From IMG/VR virus record IMGVR_UViG_3300021962_000276, positions 1-37,473 of that record: a stretch of 37,473 bases of DNA; one strand, written 5' to 3'. Shown piece by piece: positions 1-28,592 of the stretch. Origin of the DNA: a virus. The notes under the pieces are model-generated. The model worked only from the letters and a program-made list of their open reading frames with translations. It was not told where the DNA came from and did no database searches. Positions within the stretch are counted from its first letter, which is position 1; each line of letters opens with the position of its first letter. Position numbers and translations under genes: made by a program.

Positions 1-184
1 ATTAATTAAAAATGTATCGGACGCTACAGATAAACTATTAGATCTTCAAAAAAAATTAAAAGACCTTGAAGAAATTTCACCTAAAAAAGGTCCTACTAAT
101 GTGACAAATGCTCTTTTTGTTGGATCTACAGCAGAACTAGCAAAATTAATTAAAGATAATCAAGTTCCTAAAGACAATAAATAA
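1..184 (+). CDS. C-terminal end of an unrecognised protein (5' truncated)
   Basis: An open frame runs in from the left edge, reading from base 2, and stops at TAA 182-184. About 60 residues are visible. The first half (around DKLLDLQKKLKDLEE) is charged and heptad-like, so probably helical or coiled coil. The end is a short conserved-looking segment, LFVGSTAELAKLIKDN. The start and most of the protein lie outside the window. It sits 38 bases before a giant fibre-like gene on the same strand, so a virion role is plausible but is only inferred from context. I do not recognise the family. Confidence 0.6.
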   Translation, partial: LIKNVSDATDKLLDLQKKLKDLEEISPKKGPTNVTNALFVGSTAELAKLIKDNQVPKDNK

Positions 185-5367: not shown

Positions 5368-7497
5368 ATGGGAAGAAGAACATTTTTAACTGGAAGAGAA
5401 ACTGAATTAAAAGTAGGAGTTGGTCAGTATTCCGAAAATAGAACCTCTTTAGAAGTTATAGGAAGAGTTGGTATTGCAACTACAAATGCGTCATGCGATT
5501 TAGATGTTAATGGTAATGCTCAATTTCATAATGAACTTAGAGATTATACAAATACGATGGGTGCAGCAAGAAGTGTTTTAACTTCTACTGGTTCTTCAGT
5601 ATTCTGGGATGATGCATTTGATCCCAATGCATTGTTGGGAATTACAGTTCAAGAAGAAGGTGTCACTGTAGGTTCAGCAGGAAGTATTCAAACTTTAAAC
5701 TTTGTAGGATCTCAAGTAACTGCAGAGGGATTTTTGGGTATTGCTACTATTACGGTAGATCCTTTTGAACCAGCAGGAAATAATTATCAAGTACAATTCA
5801 ACCAAGATGGATTTTTTGGTGCAGCGACAAGATTGATTTATAATGATGATTTATTGAGAGTTTCTGTAGGAAGAACAGACACTGGATCATATACATTTAA
5901 TGTTACTGGTCCAGCAGGTTTTTCTAGCGATGTATATACTGAAAGAGTTTTTGTAACAGATAGAACTCCTTCTCTTCCAAATGAACTTGCATCAAAAGAA
6001 TATGTAGATTTATTTGCGACTGCTGCTATTGTTATTCAGCAAGCAGTATCTGTTGCAACTACAGCAAACTTAAATGCTACTTATTATAATGGACCTCTTA
6101 CTGGTATTGGTAATAGTTTAATTGGTATTGGCGCATCTTTGATTGCAAATAGCAATGGTATATTGAATATCGATAATTTTGTACCTGCAGACTCCGATAG
6201 AATTTTAGTAAAAAATCAAACTCTAGAGCAGCACAATGGATTCTATGTTGCAATTTCTACTGGAAGTGCATCAACTCCTTGGATTTTAGAAAGAGCCTTA
6301 GACTTCGATGAACCAACTGAAATTACAGAGGGTGCATTTGCATTCGTTACTAATGGAGATCTTAATGGTGCAAACGGTTTCGTTCTTATTAGTATCGCTC
6401 CACCATTTGATTATGTAGGAACTGGTTATGTCGGTTTATCCAGTTTAACATTCACCCAGTTCTCCGCACCTGGTGAAACTCTTGCAGGACTTGGACTTTA
6501 TAAGACTGGAAATGAAATTAATGTTGGAACAGCAAGTAGTGCGAGAATTGTAGTAAATCAGGATGATATTGATCTTGCTCCAGTAGCAGTATCTGGAATC
6601 ACAACTACATCTAGATTTGATTATTTTGTTTCTAAAGTAAGTGTAGATGGATATGGTAGAGTTGCTGGTTTTACTAGTGCAAGACATCAATTAGCATCTA
6701 CGACAGCAGAAGGAATTGTAAGACTTAGTGGAGATGTATTCCAAGTAAACTCTGGAATTACAACTTTAGCAAATACAGTTTTTGCTAATAATATTACTGC
6801 TTCTGGCGTAATTACTGCTGCATCATTTAGTGGTAATTTTGATAGTACTGGGGGAGATGGTCAAATTAATATTGATAATATTAATGCTGGCATTGTTACT
6901 GCAGGATTTTTCTATGGAGATGGTAGCAATATTACTAATATTTTGACAGGTGTTGGTCTTGCAACTGAAACTGCTTATGTTGGAAGTGGAGCTACAACTT
7001 TAGAGTTTAGGGGTGCTGCAGTTAGTAAAGTTGAGTTATTTGGTCCATCTGGAATTGGTACTATTACAATTGAAGGTGGAAGAAATATTGATGATGTTGG
7101 TAATGCAAATCAAGTTCTTTATAAAGATGCTAGCAATAATGCAACTACATCCGCAAACTTAACATTTAATGGTACAAACTTAGTTTGTGGAGGAACAGTT
7201 ACTGCAAACTCTGATGAATCTTTAAAAGAAAATGTAAAATCAATTGAAGGATCTCTAGAAAAAGTTACTCAACTTCGTGGAGTTGAGTTTGATTATAAAG
7301 AAACTGGAGATCATTCTATTGGATTAATTGCACAAGAAGTTGAAAAAGTTCTTCCAGATCTTGTTTATGAAAGTGATGATGGTATTAAGTCTGTTGCATA
7401 TCAAAATATTGTAGCAGTCCTTATTGAGGCAGTTAAAGAACAACAAGAGCAAATTAATTCTCTTAGAAGTGAAATTAGACTCCTAAAAGGTATCTAA
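5368..7497 (+). CDS. Tail fibre protein with C-terminal S74 intramolecular chaperone
   Basis: A 709-residue protein, ribosome site GGGGG at ~5349. The body is Gly/Thr/Ile-rich and beta-structured, with repeated GIATT/GITT and NI..SG.ITA phrases typical of trimeric fibres. From Ser615 to the end is a Peptidase_S74 auto-processing domain: SDESLKENV with the expected catalytic Ser615-Lys620 dyad, then FDYKETGDHSIGLIAQEVEK and a terminal coiled coil (EAVKEQQEQINSLRSEIRLL). In this family (endosialidase and T5 fibre chaperones) the domain helps trimerise the fibre and then cuts itself off just before the serine. The mature fibre here would therefore be about 614 residues. Its receptor is unknown. 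Confidence 0.92.
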   Translation: MGRRTFLTGRETELKVGVGQYSENRTSLEVIGRVGIATTNASCDLDVNGNAQFHNELRDYTNTMGAARSVLTSTGSSVFWDDAFDPNALLGITVQEEGVTVGSAGSIQTLNFVGSQVTAEGFLGIATITVDPFEPAGNNYQVQFNQDGFFGAATRLIYNDDLLRVSVGRTDTGSYTFNVTGPAGFSSDVYTERVFVTDRTPSLPNELASKEYVDLFATAAIVIQQAVSVATTANLNATYYNGPLTGIGNSLIGIGASLIANSNGILNIDNFVPADSDRILVKNQTLEQHNGFYVAISTGSASTPWILERALDFDEPTEITEGAFAFVTNGDLNGANGFVLISIAPPFDYVGTGYVGLSSLTFTQFSAPGETLAGLGLYKTGNEINVGTASSARIVVNQDDIDLAPVAVSGITTTSRFDYFVSKVSVDGYGRVAGFTSARHQLASTTAEGIVRLSGDVFQVNSGITTLANTVFANNITASGVITAASFSGNFDSTGGDGQINIDNINAGIVTAGFFYGDGSNITNILTGVGLATETAYVGSGATTLEFRGAAVSKVELFGPSGIGTITIEGGRNIDDVGNANQVLYKDASNNATTSANLTFNGTNLVCGGTVTANSDESLKENVKSIEGSLEKVTQLRGVEFDYKETGDHSIGLIAQEVEKVLPDLVYESDDGIKSVAYQNIVAVLIEAVKEQQEQINSLRSEIRLLKGI

Positions 7498-7501
7498 TTA
7501 T

Positions 7502-7539
7502 TTGGAGCAATAAATAGAAAAAAGTATTTGTTGCTCCAA
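7502..7539 (+). promoter_or_regulatory. 15-bp stem-loop enclosing a late promoter and ending at a start codon
   Basis: Bases 7502-7516 pair with 7525-7539 through 15 consecutive positions (14 Watson-Crick, one T.G at 7511/7530), leaving an 8-base loop GAAAAAAG. The 5' arm contains the late promoter motif AATAAATA (7509-7516). The 3' arm ends on the A of the ATG at 7539. A read-through RNA from the upstream fibre gene would fold the translation start into the stem. An RNA begun from the late promoter would start in or near the loop and lack the 5' arm. Confidence 0.8.
7509..7516 (+). promoter_or_regulatory. T4-type late promoter (AATAAATA)
   Basis: Seven of eight bases match the T4 late -10 element TATAAATA, and the motif fits the NATAAATA form reported for T4-like cyanophages. 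It lies 22 bases before the ATG of the DUF6321-type gene, which leaves a leader of roughly 15 bases. It should be read by gp55, encoded at 24004-24483. Confidence 0.65.
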
Positions 7540-8615
7540 TGTTTGATATAGATCCTAAAAAGCACAAATCTGCTCAAAAGCAGGAAAAAATTAGAGGTTT
7601 AACTAAATCTACAAATCCAAATGAAGCGGATGTTGCAAAGAAAAAATTAAGACCATCTGCTTCTATAGATCTTCCTAAAGTTAATAAAGAAGAAGTTAAA
7701 ATAGTAGATAAAATTCTCCAAGAACTTGGAGAAGAGAAAAAAGGTCTTTGGGCAAACATTCATGCTCGTAGAAAGAAAGGTCTTCCCAAAAAGAAACCAG
7801 GGCAAAAGGGATATCCAGAAACCCTTAATATTAAAGAGGGTTTAAAGCAGGCACGCAAAAATGTTGGTGCTTCTAAGTGTTGGGATGGAAAAAAAGTTGA
7901 TCCAAATCAACCAACAAAAATAAAGGGCGGCAAAGAAGTGCCAAATTGTGTTCCAGAGTCACTAACTATTGAGGATGCAGATGGAAACACTTTTGCAGAA
8001 GTTATTGATATTATTAAAGTAAATGAAGAAAGTGAAAAAAAGTATTGTAAAAAATGTAAGAAAAGAGAATCTAGAGATGAGTGTAAATATGGTCCAAAAG
8101 TATGGGACAAAATGACTTCAGATGATGACGATGATGAAGATGATGATATTAAAGAAGCAGTAAAAATTCCTGCTAAGAGTGGTAATTTACTTATGGTTGT
8201 CGTCATGTGGAGAGGAAAAACTTATGGACTAAGAGTTTTCTTCCCACAAACAAAGATGCCTAATAAGAAGGAAGTTGAACAAGAGATTCAAAAAATCTAT
8301 CCAGATTCCAGAGTAACTTATATTCAAAAAGTTGAAAGAGAACCTGGACAACCTTTTCTTCAAGTAGAAGGCGCTGCATGGACAAAAAAAGCGGGAAAGT
8401 CTAAGAGCGGTGGACTTAATGAAAAAGGACGCCGCTCATACGAAAAAGAAAATCCTGGTTCTGATTTAAAGGCACCTTCAAAGAAAGTTGGAAATCCCAG
8501 GAGAGCATCATTCTGTGCGAGAATGACAGGAATGAAGAAAAAGTTAACTTCAAGTAAAACTGCTAACGATCCAGATAGCAGAATCAATAAGTCCCTTAGA
8601 GCTTGGAATTGCTGA
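7539..8615 (+). CDS. Lys/Cys-rich protein with DUF6321-like C-terminus
   Basis: A 358-residue, strongly basic protein. Residues ~65-95 read GLWANIHARRKKGLPKKKPG. A CWDGKK...PNC motif covers 114-137, and a possible metal site CKKC plus C182 lies at 170-182. Acid run SDDDDDEDDD is at 194-203. Residues ~217-266 (MWRGKTYGLRVFF...YPDSRVTYIQ) form a small domain also found in the next gene. Residues ~280-358 (WTKKAGKSKSGGLNEKGR, ENPGSDLKAPSKKVGNPRR, FCARMTGMKKKL, SRINKSLRAWNC) match my memory of DUF6321, a domain common in marine phages and of unknown function. The basic C-terminus suggests nucleic-acid contact. Expression is probably late, from the promoter at 7509, with start-codon control by the stem-loop. 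Confidence 0.85.
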   Translation: MFDIDPKKHKSAQKQEKIRGLTKSTNPNEADVAKKKLRPSASIDLPKVNKEEVKIVDKILQELGEEKKGLWANIHARRKKGLPKKKPGQKGYPETLNIKEGLKQARKNVGASKCWDGKKVDPNQPTKIKGGKEVPNCVPESLTIEDADGNTFAEVIDIIKVNEESEKKYCKKCKKRESRDECKYGPKVWDKMTSDDDDDEDDDIKEAVKIPAKSGNLLMVVVMWRGKTYGLRVFFPQTKMPNKKEVEQEIQKIYPDSRVTYIQKVEREPGQPFLQVEGAAWTKKAGKSKSGGLNEKGRRSYEKENPGSDLKAPSKKVGNPRRASFCARMTGMKKKLTSSKTANDPDSRINKSLRAWNC

Positions 8616-10220: not shown

Positions 10221-11870
10221 ATGAGTGATAGTGTATATCTAGGTAATCCTAATCTAAAAAAAGCAAATACTGCAATTGAATTTACTCAAGAACAAATTCT
10301 TGAGTTTGTAAAATGTAAAGAAGATCCAGTATATTTTGCAAATAACTATATCAAGATTGTTTCTCTTGATGAAGGATTAACTCAGTTTCATCCTTATCAT
10401 TTCCAAGAGAGATTGATTACAAGATTCCATGAGAATCGTTTTAATATTTGCAAAATGCCTAGACAGACGGGTAAATCAACAACCGTTGTCTCGTATCTTC
10501 TTCATTATGCAGTTTTTAATGATAGTGTTAATATTGGTATTCTTGCAAACAAAGCAGCGACTGCTAGAGAACTTTTAAGTAGATTACAGACTGCTTATGA
10601 AAATCTACCAAAATGGATGCAGCAAGGTATCATATCATGGAATAAAGGTTCTCTGGAGTTAGAAAATGGCAGTAAGATATTGGCAGCTTCTACATCTGCG
10701 AGTGCTGTCCGAGGCATGTCTTTCAATATCTTGTTCCTCGACGAATTCGCTTTCGTTCCAAACCATATTGCAGACTCGTTCTTTGCATCTGTTTATCCTA
10801 CTATTACTTCTGGTAAAAACACGAAGGTAATTGTAGTATCTACGCCACACGGTATGAATCACTTCTACCGAATGTGGCATGATGCAGAAAAAGGAAAAAA
10901 TGAATATGTCCCAACTGATGTTCACTGGTCAGAAGTCCCTGGAAGGGATGAGAAGTGGAAAGCATCGACTATTGCTAATACTTCAGAGCAGCAGTTCAAA
11001 GTTGAGTTTGAATGCGAATTCTTAGGATCAGTTGATACTCTTATTAACCCCAGTAAACTCAGAACATTAGTATATGATAGTCCAATTAAAAGAAATGCTG
11101 GACTAGACATATATGAAGAATCAAAAGAGAATCATGATTATGTAATTACTGTAGATGTTGCGAGAGGAGTAAGTGAAGATTACTCAGCATTTGTAGTATT
11201 TGATATAACACAGTTTCCCCATAAGATTGTGGCAAAATATAGAAACAACGAGATCAAACCTATGTTGTTTCCAAATATAATCTATGAAGTAGCAAAAAAT
11301 TATAATGGTGCATATATTCTTTGCGAAGTAAATGATATTGGTGATCAGGTAGCATCTTTACTGCATTATGATCTTGAGTATCAAAATGTTTTGATGTGTT
11401 CTATGAGAGGAAGAGCAGGTCAAATAGTCGGACAAGGATTTTCTGGAAAGAAAACTCAACTTGGTGTTAAGATGTCCAAAACTGTTAAGAAAGTTGGATC
11501 TCTTAATCTTAAAACTATGATTGAAGAAGATAAACTTATCTTCAATGACTATGAGATCATATCTGAGTTAACAACTTTTATTCAAAAACACAATTCATTT
11601 GAGGCAGAAGAGGGTTGTAATGATGACCTTGCAATGTGTCTTGTAATATATGCTTGGTTAGTTGCACAGGATTATTTTAAAGAACTTACAGATCAAGATA
11701 TTAGAAAGCGTTTATATGAAGAACAAAAGAATCAGATAGAACAAGATATGTCTCCATTTGGATTTGTAATTGATGGTTTAAACGATGAAGGATCTTTTGT
11801 AGACAGTACTGGAGATAGATGGTTTACCGATGAATATGGTGATATGTCTTATATGTGGGATTATGTATGA
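10221..11870 (+). CDS. 17: Terminase large subunit gp17
   Basis: A 549-residue packaging motor and nuclease. The N-terminal ATPase has Walker A PRQTGKST (residues 80-87), Walker B LFLDEF (171-176) and a coupling motif STPHG (208-212). The C-terminal RNase H-like nuclease has a first Asp in TVDVARG (D312), a second acidic residue in SEDYSAF, and a last acidic pair in CNDDLAM near residue 465. Length is slightly shorter than T4 gp17 (610). It would cut concatemeric DNA and pump it through the portal (gp20, 15133-16815). Ribosome site AAAGGTAA. The stop overlaps the next gene. No small terminase (gp16) is recognised next to it. Confidence 0.97.
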   Translation: MSDSVYLGNPNLKKANTAIEFTQEQILEFVKCKEDPVYFANNYIKIVSLDEGLTQFHPYHFQERLITRFHENRFNICKMPRQTGKSTTVVSYLLHYAVFNDSVNIGILANKAATARELLSRLQTAYENLPKWMQQGIISWNKGSLELENGSKILAASTSASAVRGMSFNILFLDEFAFVPNHIADSFFASVYPTITSGKNTKVIVVSTPHGMNHFYRMWHDAEKGKNEYVPTDVHWSEVPGRDEKWKASTIANTSEQQFKVEFECEFLGSVDTLINPSKLRTLVYDSPIKRNAGLDIYEESKENHDYVITVDVARGVSEDYSAFVVFDITQFPHKIVAKYRNNEIKPMLFPNIIYEVAKNYNGAYILCEVNDIGDQVASLLHYDLEYQNVLMCSMRGRAGQIVGQGFSGKKTQLGVKMSKTVKKVGSLNLKTMIEEDKLIFNDYEIISELTTFIQKHNSFEAEEGCNDDLAMCLVIYAWLVAQDYFKELTDQDIRKRLYEEQKNQIEQDMSPFGFVIDGLNDEGSFVDSTGDRWFTDEYGDMSYMWDYV

Positions 11871-15132: not shown

Positions 15133-16815
15133 ATGGCAAAACTATTTGGTTTTTCTATTGAAGATGGTGATCAAAAACCCGATAGTGTGATCTCTCCCGT
15201 TCCTCAATCAGATGAGGACGGGATTGATCATTATTTAACTAGCGGGTTTTTTGGTTCGTATGTAGATATTGAAGGTGTTTATAAAACAGAATATGAATTA
15301 ATTCAGCGTTATAGGGAAATGGCACTTCATCCTGAAGTGGACAGTGCCATTGAAGATATTGTTAATGAAGCAATTGTTTCAGATTCTGATGATGTTCCAG
15401 TGCAGATTGAACTATCAAATCTGAAAGCAAGTGATGGTATTAAGAAAAAAATTAGAGAAGAATTTAAAAGAATTTTAGATTTATTAGATTTTAACAAAAA
15501 GTGCCACGAAATATATAAAAATTGGTATATTGATGGAAAAATTTATTATCATAAAGTTATTGACATGAAGCGTCCTCAGGATGGTATCCAAGAATTGAGA
15601 TACATTGACGCTATGAAAATGAAGTATGTAAGAAAGAAAAAAGGTGATTTAAAGAATCAAAATCAATTTGTAAAAAGGAATGTTCAGGATAATCCTTTAG
15701 ACTATGATTTCCCAGAAATTGAAGAATACTTTATTTACAATCCTAAAGTATTAGGAAATACTGCGGGATTTAATTCAAATAACAGTTCTTCTGAAGGAAT
15801 CAGGATTGCTAAAGATGCTATTACATATTGCACCTCAGGACTTGTAGATAGAAATAAAGGAATAACTCTTTCATATCTTCACAAAGCAATTAAATCTCTC
15901 AATCAACTTCGCATGATTGAAGATTCACTTGTTATCTATAGATTGTCTCGTGCTCCAGAGCGTAGAATTTTTTACATTGATGTAGGTAATCTACCAAAAA
16001 TTAAAGCGGAACAATATCTTCGTGATGTAATGATGCGTTATAGAAATAAACTAGTATATGACGCATCAACTGGCGAAATTCGTGATGATAAAAAATACAT
16101 GAGTATGCTTGAAGATTTTTGGTTGCCTCGCCGTGAAGGAGGTAGAGGAACTGAAATCTCTACGCTACCTGGTGGACAAAACCTTGGAGAAATTACTGAT
16201 ATTAATTATTTCCAAGAAAAACTATATCGTTCACTAAATGTTCCATCATCAAGAATAAGTGGAGAAGGTGGATTTAATCTTGGTCGTTCATCAGAAATTC
16301 TTAGAGATGAACTTAAATTCACTAAGTTTGTAGGAAGACTAAGAAAGAGATTTTCTAACATGTTTAGTGACATGTTGAAGACACAACTTATTCTTAAGAA
16401 TATCGTTACCCCAGAAGATTGGGAATTGATGTCTCAACATATACAATATGATTTCTTATATGATAATCATTTCTCAGAACTTAAAGACTCTGAGTTAATG
16501 AATGAAAGATTGGGACTTCTTGCAACTGCAGAACCATATGTTGGTAAGTATTTCTCTCAAGATTATCTAAGAAGAAAGATTCTTAGACAGACTGATGAAG
16601 AAATTGTAGAGCAGGATGAGTTAATTAAAAAAGAAATTAAAGATGGTATAATTCCAGATCCTGCAGAAATGCAAATTGATCCTGCTACTGGACAACCAAT
16701 TCCCGGTGCAGGTGGTGCTGGTGATTTAGGTGCTCCAGTAGTTGAACCCGATTTAGAATCTGAAGGTTCAGCAACACAACTTAGTGGTAAAGATACTAAA
16801 GCAGCAGAGATCTGA
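15133..16815 (+). CDS. 20: Portal vertex protein gp20
   Basis: A 560-residue protein (T4 gp20 is 524). Conserved portal features run in order: HYLTSGFFGSYVDIEG, LIQRYREMALHPEVDSAIEDIVNEAI, the strand pair YIDGKIYYHKVID, RIFYIDVGNLPKIKAEQYL, the FWLPRREGGRGTEISTLPGG loop, and SRISGEGGFNLGRSSEI. The Pro/Gly-rich acidic tail (residues ~505-560) is typical of the cyanophage form. It forms the 12-subunit ring through which gp17 packages DNA and from which the prohead grows. Confidence 0.97.
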   Translation: MAKLFGFSIEDGDQKPDSVISPVPQSDEDGIDHYLTSGFFGSYVDIEGVYKTEYELIQRYREMALHPEVDSAIEDIVNEAIVSDSDDVPVQIELSNLKASDGIKKKIREEFKRILDLLDFNKKCHEIYKNWYIDGKIYYHKVIDMKRPQDGIQELRYIDAMKMKYVRKKKGDLKNQNQFVKRNVQDNPLDYDFPEIEEYFIYNPKVLGNTAGFNSNNSSSEGIRIAKDAITYCTSGLVDRNKGITLSYLHKAIKSLNQLRMIEDSLVIYRLSRAPERRIFYIDVGNLPKIKAEQYLRDVMMRYRNKLVYDASTGEIRDDKKYMSMLEDFWLPRREGGRGTEISTLPGGQNLGEITDINYFQEKLYRSLNVPSSRISGEGGFNLGRSSEILRDELKFTKFVGRLRKRFSNMFSDMLKTQLILKNIVTPEDWELMSQHIQYDFLYDNHFSELKDSELMNERLGLLATAEPYVGKYFSQDYLRRKILRQTDEEIVEQDELIKKEIKDGIIPDPAEMQIDPATGQPIPGAGGAGDLGAPVVEPDLESEGSATQLSGKDTKAAEI

Positions 16816-28370: not shown

Positions 28371-28592
28371 ATGCAAGTCCCAAACTGGAAACACAATTCT
28401 GGGAAACCTCAGAAACGAAAACTTAAACCGCAAGCACTGAGGCAAGCTAAAGCACGACTCGCCCAGTTCAAAAAGCGTCACATGGGTCGCCCAAAAGGCG
28501 ACCTTTCGTTTTATGATGGTCTCATACGAAACAAATTCGATGTCAGTTTCTCACGAAATCAAATCCCAACTTGCCAAACTGCTTGCCACTGA
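28371..28592 (+). CDS. Small basic protein of uncertain reality, overlapping the VWA gene
   Basis: A 73-codon frame with a strongly basic helical middle (KRKLKPQALRQAKARLAQFKKR). Its last ~27 codons overlap the next gene in another frame (from 28513), and that end (FDVSFSRNQIPTC) looks like a by-product of the neighbour. A GC-rich hairpin lies within it. No ribosome site is visible. It may be a small nucleic-acid-binding protein, or the region may be the structured leader of the VWA gene. Confidence 0.45.
   Translation: MQVPNWKHNSGKPQKRKLKPQALRQAKARLAQFKKRHMGRPKGDLSFYDGLIRNKFDVSFSRNQIPTCQTACH
28485..28503 (+). terminator. GC-rich hairpin with short T runs before the HEXXH-VWA gene
   Basis: GGTCGCC (28485-28491) pairs with GGCGACC (28497-28503) around CAAAA and is followed by TTTCGTTTT, ending two bases before the ATG at 28513. 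It may act as a weak terminator or attenuator, or as a leader structure. The T tract is interrupted by CG, so full termination is doubtful. Confidence 0.5.

Follow-up and report, generated by a model that had tools for sequence, protein, structure and literature searches.

A putative cyanophage late promoter within a start-codon hairpin, probably in a vestigial small gene

In this study, a stem-loop ending on the start codon of a DUF6321 gene was analysed in a 37,473-nt viral sequence (IMG/VR record IMGVR_UViG_3300021962_000276, taken over its full length and hereafter called the window). The best explanation of the whole, which we consider probable, is that the late promoter for the genes from DUF6321 to terL lies in what is left of a small gene, and that its hairpin was mainly inherited from that gene. 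Positions 7502-7540 are most likely a decayed relic of a 51-aa open reading frame (ORF) that retained the promoter. The promoter would be the functional core of the element, while an effect of the hairpin on translation from read-through RNA is possible.

The window is a late structural region of a T4-like cyanophage of the Kyanoviridae type, and among annotated phages Synechococcus phage S-SCSM1 (Kyanoviridae) is most closely related to it. The gene order terS, long fibre, small virion gene, tail fibre, DUF6321 gene, phrog_1742, phrog_1645, terL and sheath is common to both, and the genes from DUF6321 through phrog_1742 and phrog_1645 to terL form one unit, with the DUF6321 gene first (Table 1). 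The DUF6321 domain makes up the C-terminus of the 358-aa product, and a literature search found no paper mentioning DUF6321. The protein itself is a mosaic, whose modules IDPKKHK..QKQ, GLWANIH and KCWDGKK are reordered in relatives (L085, L087-L091). In regard to transcription arriving from upstream, the genes preceding the hairpin are of the late structural type, sigma-70-like sites are no commoner in the window than in its shuffles, and the motif at 176-183 is the likely source of late read-through RNA.

Table 1. Positions of the hairpin, the putative promoters, the relic and the neighbouring genes in the window.
Feature	Position	Strand	Basis or remark
Late-promoter motif AATAAATA	176..183	+	End of partial terS-like ORF, upstream of fibre genes
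Upstream tail-fibre gene, S74 chaperone domain	5368..7497	+	Stop 4 bases before 5' arm
5' arm of stem (TTGGAGCAATAAATA)	7502..7516	+	Sequence, folding
Candidate relic of 51-aa ORF, codons 11-23 (W-S-N-K-[Y to stop]-...-S-N)	7502..7540	+	nhmmer profile match
Putative late (gp55-type) promoter element AATAAATA	7509..7516	+	Matches NATAAATA; aligns with small-ORF invariant block
Loop GAAAAAAG	7517..7524	+	Holds predicted late transcription start near 7523
3' arm (TATTTGTTGCTCCAA)	7525..7539	+	Ends on A of start codon
DUF6321 gene, 358 aa	7539..8615	+	PF19846 E 1.3e-22; PHROGs
terL	10221-11870		PHROGs match

The geometry described in the first-pass annotation proved exact in both sequence and folding: TTGGAGCAATAAATA-GAAAAAAG-TATTTGTTGCTCCAA forms 15 uninterrupted pairs, one of them T.G, around an 8-base loop, and the A of ATG 7539 is the last base of the 3' arm, closing the stem. 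The strength of this structure is far above chance. The 91 nt at 7480-7570 fold at -26.1 kcal/mol (z -6.4), a value equalled by 0 of 200 shuffles, and the stem-loop ranks as the second deepest locus among all 42-nt segments of the window. Perfect stems of at least 15 bp with loops of up to 12 number two in the window, compared with one across eight shuffled windows combined. Hairpins whose stability is about equal to or above that of 7502-7539 were observed within coding regions at 15189-15230 and 8397-8445.

The placement of a late element in the 5' arm by the same annotation was likewise borne out. The octamer matches NATAAATA, the late promoter of the cyanomyoviruses S-PM2 and Syn9 (PMC2984593), and it is conserved in place in relatives, either as the invariant block of a small ORF or, elsewhere, as ATAAATA/CTAAATA 5' of the DUF6321 gene. 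In the window, AATAAATA ends 22 nt 5' of ATG 7539. ATAAATA is not enriched there (15 observed, 20.4 expected), and it is the position and the comparison with relatives, not the motif count, that point to promoter activity of 7509-7516. The RNA is predicted to start near 7523, the seventh nucleotide after ATAAATA, a position occupied by A in 64% of 84 other cyanophage sites.

In relatives devoid of the small ORF (S-SCSM1, S-CAM9, S-PRM1, S-SRM01 and DSL-LC02), the DUF6321 start is preceded at 25-32 nt by CTAAATA or ATAAATA with no hairpin, so the promoter position appears to have been kept amid changing surroundings. At the S-SCSM1 junction, which joins the same genes, the gap is 25 nt long and CTAAATA stands for ATAAATA. 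The CTAAATA copies (L084:19225, L302:2735, L303:2735 and L306:2964, from S-SCSM1, S-CAM9, S-PRM1 and S-SRM01), which in S-SCSM1 at least contain the TAA of the upstream stop, are possibly a variant late promoter overlapping a stop codon. Other arrangements of late-promoter-like motifs were also observed. At L401:397 (+), ATAAATA is directly followed by a hairpin (GGGTA-GAGA-TACCC) and by seven consecutive T, shortly before an ATG, which looks like a promoter with an apparent terminator in its leader. At L409:1471 and L414:1493, the leader has the palindrome AAAGAGACTCTTT after the motif, a short distance upstream of a start codon near a WSxKYKKSI module.

The origin of the element is suggested by a gene family found in relatives. 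The exact 5' arm occurs at 119 sites in the viral contigs searched, few of which have a similar full hairpin (L211, L264 and, more weakly, L212 and L273), and all of these hairpins lie within a 51-aa ORF, MKTFKQFQEDWSNKYKKSIDCSNPKGFSQRAHCAGRKKRAKGEQTKSKPVE. This ORF is widespread in cyanophages directly 5' of the DUF6321 gene, the next ATG being located -1 to +2 nt from its stop in nearly all members, and the complete proteins encoded downstream mostly end with the DUF6321 C-terminus, like ...KGMKSKLTSAETARDPDSNINKALRRWNCN. In phage Bellamy, it is flanked by a putative tail fibre gene on one side and the DUF6321 and terL genes on the other, a location corresponding to that of the gap in the window. 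A PHROGs search gave no family for it.

Among 70 distinct members, synonymous entropy is about zero at codons 13-19 (AAT AAA TAT AAA AAG AGT ATT) and high around them; Ser codons 12 and 22, together with most others of the small ORF, do vary. In a set of members not picked by the exact arm, 60 of 65 contain the exact block AATAAATATAAAAAGAGTATT, for which the chance expected from window codon usage is about 0.017 per sequence. The control was provided by peptides of the WSxKYKKSI type fused inside larger proteins, which vary freely: AGT and ATAAATA are each present in 1 of 47 distinct copies, and Asn is swapped for Glu, Ala or Asp. The fused module, WSxKYKKSIDCxNPKGFSQ, is found in S-CAM9, S-PRM1 and S-SRM01, whereas members of the 51-aa ORF family such as Bellamy gp122 (MF351863) represent the stand-alone form, with whose codons 11-23 window positions 7502-7540 align. 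With synonymous variation near-absent in the small ORF, variation free in the fused control, and AATAAATA being a cyanophage late promoter, the simplest reading is that the small ORF would carry a late promoter within its coding sequence, at Asn-Lys-Tyr. In most members, AATAAATA is situated 108-111 nt before the DUF6321 start. A scan of 16 cyanophage genomes took only intergenic sites or sites at most 10 bp from a gene end (PMC3037559), and a promoter within the small ORF would thus escape it. The synonymous constraint extends 11-13 nt past AATAAATA, through AAAAAGAGTATT (codons 16-19; L299-L301, L308-L387), presumably the first bases of the transcript; at other cyanophage late-promoter-like sites, no consensus matching this stretch was found, except for A at the seventh base.

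Similarity to the family was searched for with a DNA profile built from the 65 small-ORF members not selected by the exact arm. The best nhmmer match in the window was exactly 7502-7540 (13.1 bits, E 0.0017), the next reached 2.9 bits, and the best score over 100 shuffled windows was 11.5 bits. In contrast to the family members, the copy in the window has a disrupted frame that no longer specifies the protein: an in-frame TAG at 7515-7517 replaces the Tyr codon, one base is deleted in the loop, and the start and the first ten codons are gone. Its last AAT, together with the following G, makes up the new start codon of the DUF6321 gene. Against a relic stand its length of only about 39 nt, the AT-rich nature of the match, the profile margin over shuffles, modest by itself, and the fact that homology stops at the hairpin ends.

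According to the history that we propose, an ancestral 51-aa ORF directly 5' of the DUF6321 gene would have borne AATAAATA under strong nucleotide-level constraint. In the lineage of the window phage, this ORF would have decayed through loss of its start, the TAG and the frameshift, leaving about 39 bases, while the promoter survived and would now fire about 16 nt upstream of the DUF6321 start codon. The 15-bp hairpin would be mainly inherited, as the codons flanking the promoter are already near-complementary in L211, L264 and L327, and occlusion of the start on read-through RNA would be a by-product and not a selected switch. Of the points on which this history builds, the hairpin, the homology, the constraint on the promoter block and the lack of conserved pairing were shown. 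The first-pass annotation had taken the exact fit of promoter, arm and ATG as making chance unlikely; the fit is more readily accounted for if the element derives from a conserved coding sequence in which AATAAATA and near-complementary codons were already present. On the other hand, the window stem is slightly more perfect than that of any relative, and its pair 11, elsewhere an A x G mismatch, is now A-T, a repair that might be a sign of the hairpin being under selection. In comparison with L211, one mismatch (this pair) was improved and one pair was weakened to T.G, changes compatible with drift or weak selection.

A different proposal, that of the annotation, is a selected switch of the T4 e/soc/I-TevI type, in which the fold hides the DUF6321 start on RNA reading through from the fibre gene and only the internal late RNA is translated. 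Occlusion of this kind is physically plausible in folding models, and this part of the proposal stood. Besides the location of the promoter in the 5' arm and the end of the 3' arm on the ATG, it is favoured by the opening energy of the region -18 to +12 around ATG 7539: on read-through RNA it amounts to 20.1 kcal/mol, more than for any other of 32 starts in the window, and on RNA starting at 7522-7524 to 3.9-4.0 kcal/mol; an RNA beginning about 7 nt after the promoter element would be without the 5' arm. The leaders of T4 e and soc, which share this geometry (PMC3014915), were recovered by the identical folding test as a positive control. The second most occluded start, at 17.4 kcal/mol, is that of ATG 28513, with AAAAGGCGACCTTTCGTTTT at 28490-28515. 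The part concerning selection fared worse. The 3' arm contains no Shine-Dalgarno sequence and pairs only the A of AUG, although the start region is still strongly occluded in folding. Moreover, the upstream fibre gene is late and structural, and the gene does not lie downstream of early/middle transcription, so that read-through and internal RNA would be made together, unlike in T4 (PMC2988022).

Conservation of the pairing in relatives, whose absence the annotation had named as a refutation of its proposal, was not found either. S-SCSM1 lacks the hairpin, and in the small-ORF family pairs 1, 3, 6 and 11 form in 25, 28, 42 and 0% of members, the mean energy of the homologous family being -6.8 versus -19.0 for the window hairpin. 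No covariation was found in this family, and 17 of 200 permutations of the 3' tails gave a mean energy as low as its own. A strong hairpin with every base of ATAAATA paired occurs at 1 of 70 late-promoter-like cyanophage sites 5' of ORFs and at 1 of 77 ATAAATA sites in 440 kb of cyanophage DNA, in both cases the window site, and since the same test recovers the T4 e and soc leaders, a promoter within a hairpin is not a general cyanophage design. A both-arm pattern run against viral contigs returned two matches, which turned out to be unrelated. The exact 3' arm is present in 82 contigs, and in no case does AATAAATA occur within the 45 nt before it; no relatives sharing the window gap were found via the DUF6321 N-terminus or the fibre protein; the sequence with 88% fibre identity (L097) ends inside the fibre gene. 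No publication describing a cyanophage late promoter within a hairpin came up in the literature search. All in all, no evidence of selection for the hairpin was found, and a selected switch is unlikely, while a T4-lysozyme-style switch in the window phage is possible and probably incidental.

Two further explanations were considered. An intrinsic terminator, or a hairpin stabilising the 3'-end of the fibre transcript, might overlap the next promoter by accident. The stem-loop does begin 4 bases after the fibre stop codon and, with its tail TGTTTGATAT, is the top entry of a loose consensus scan for terminator-like structures. An Rfam search of the region gave no match above cut-off, with a weak, sub-threshold likeness to the AT-rich 3'UTR hairpin RF04344 (24.1 bits, cut-off 48.4). 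Yet the T-tract is poor and interrupted, the scan counts just 4 G-C pairs, termination would fall within the DUF6321 start, and S-SCSM1, with the same gene order, has no hairpin at this place; we regard a terminator as the most improbable of the explanations considered. It is also very unlikely that the element owes nothing to the small ORF and combines an unrelated late promoter with a hairpin that arose by chance or evolved newly. ATAAATA does occur often in AT-rich DNA and the shared sequence is short, but the profile of the ORF family puts 7502-7540 first in the window, at the position of the small ORF in relatives, and the match includes seven more bases (TTGGAGC), the A-rich spacer and AGTATT, none of which a promoter and a hairpin need.

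An extension of the relic reading can be put forward tentatively, as a rather doubtful idea. Codons 13-19 of the mini-gene would be dual-coding, specifying protein, late promoter and the extra element AAAAAGAGTATT at the 5' end of the transcript of the unit that extends to the large terminase; the window phage would have dropped the protein and kept the DNA element as a start-occluding hairpin, that is, an e-type switch made from a dead gene.

As regards the broader meaning, the tempting analogy with T4 lysozyme is corrected and replaced by a history that can be tested. A late promoter inside a conserved tiny ORF would feed a unit reaching the packaging motor gene, and would be missed by scans restricted to intergenic DNA. 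This embedded promoter appears to have outlived its ORF in at least one lineage. The case also illustrates how coding constraint can produce a promoter placed in a hairpin when an RNA switch is not itself selected.

The T4 precedent is as the annotation described it: in e and I-TevI, the 5' strand of the hairpin includes the late promoter, and the start is silenced on early/middle RNA (PMC3014915, PMC2988022). The window element resembles T4 e, soc, 49 and I-TevI in that a hairpin at the start region carries a late promoter in its 5' strand, that the late RNA, here a predicted one, is without that strand, and that the start would be occluded on longer RNA. In T4, however, the helix holds the Shine-Dalgarno sequence and/or the AUG, and the longer transcripts are early or middle ones, whereas in the window no Shine-Dalgarno sequence is hidden, the stem takes in a single base of the AUG, transcripts from upstream are late, and relatives do not conserve the pairing. 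The closer likeness in sequence is to the cyanomyovirus late promoters of S-PM2 and Syn9, with which the element shares the octamer AATAAATA 5' of a late virion/packaging gene, the difference being that in relatives the copy serving the DUF6321 unit would sit inside a small conserved ORF.
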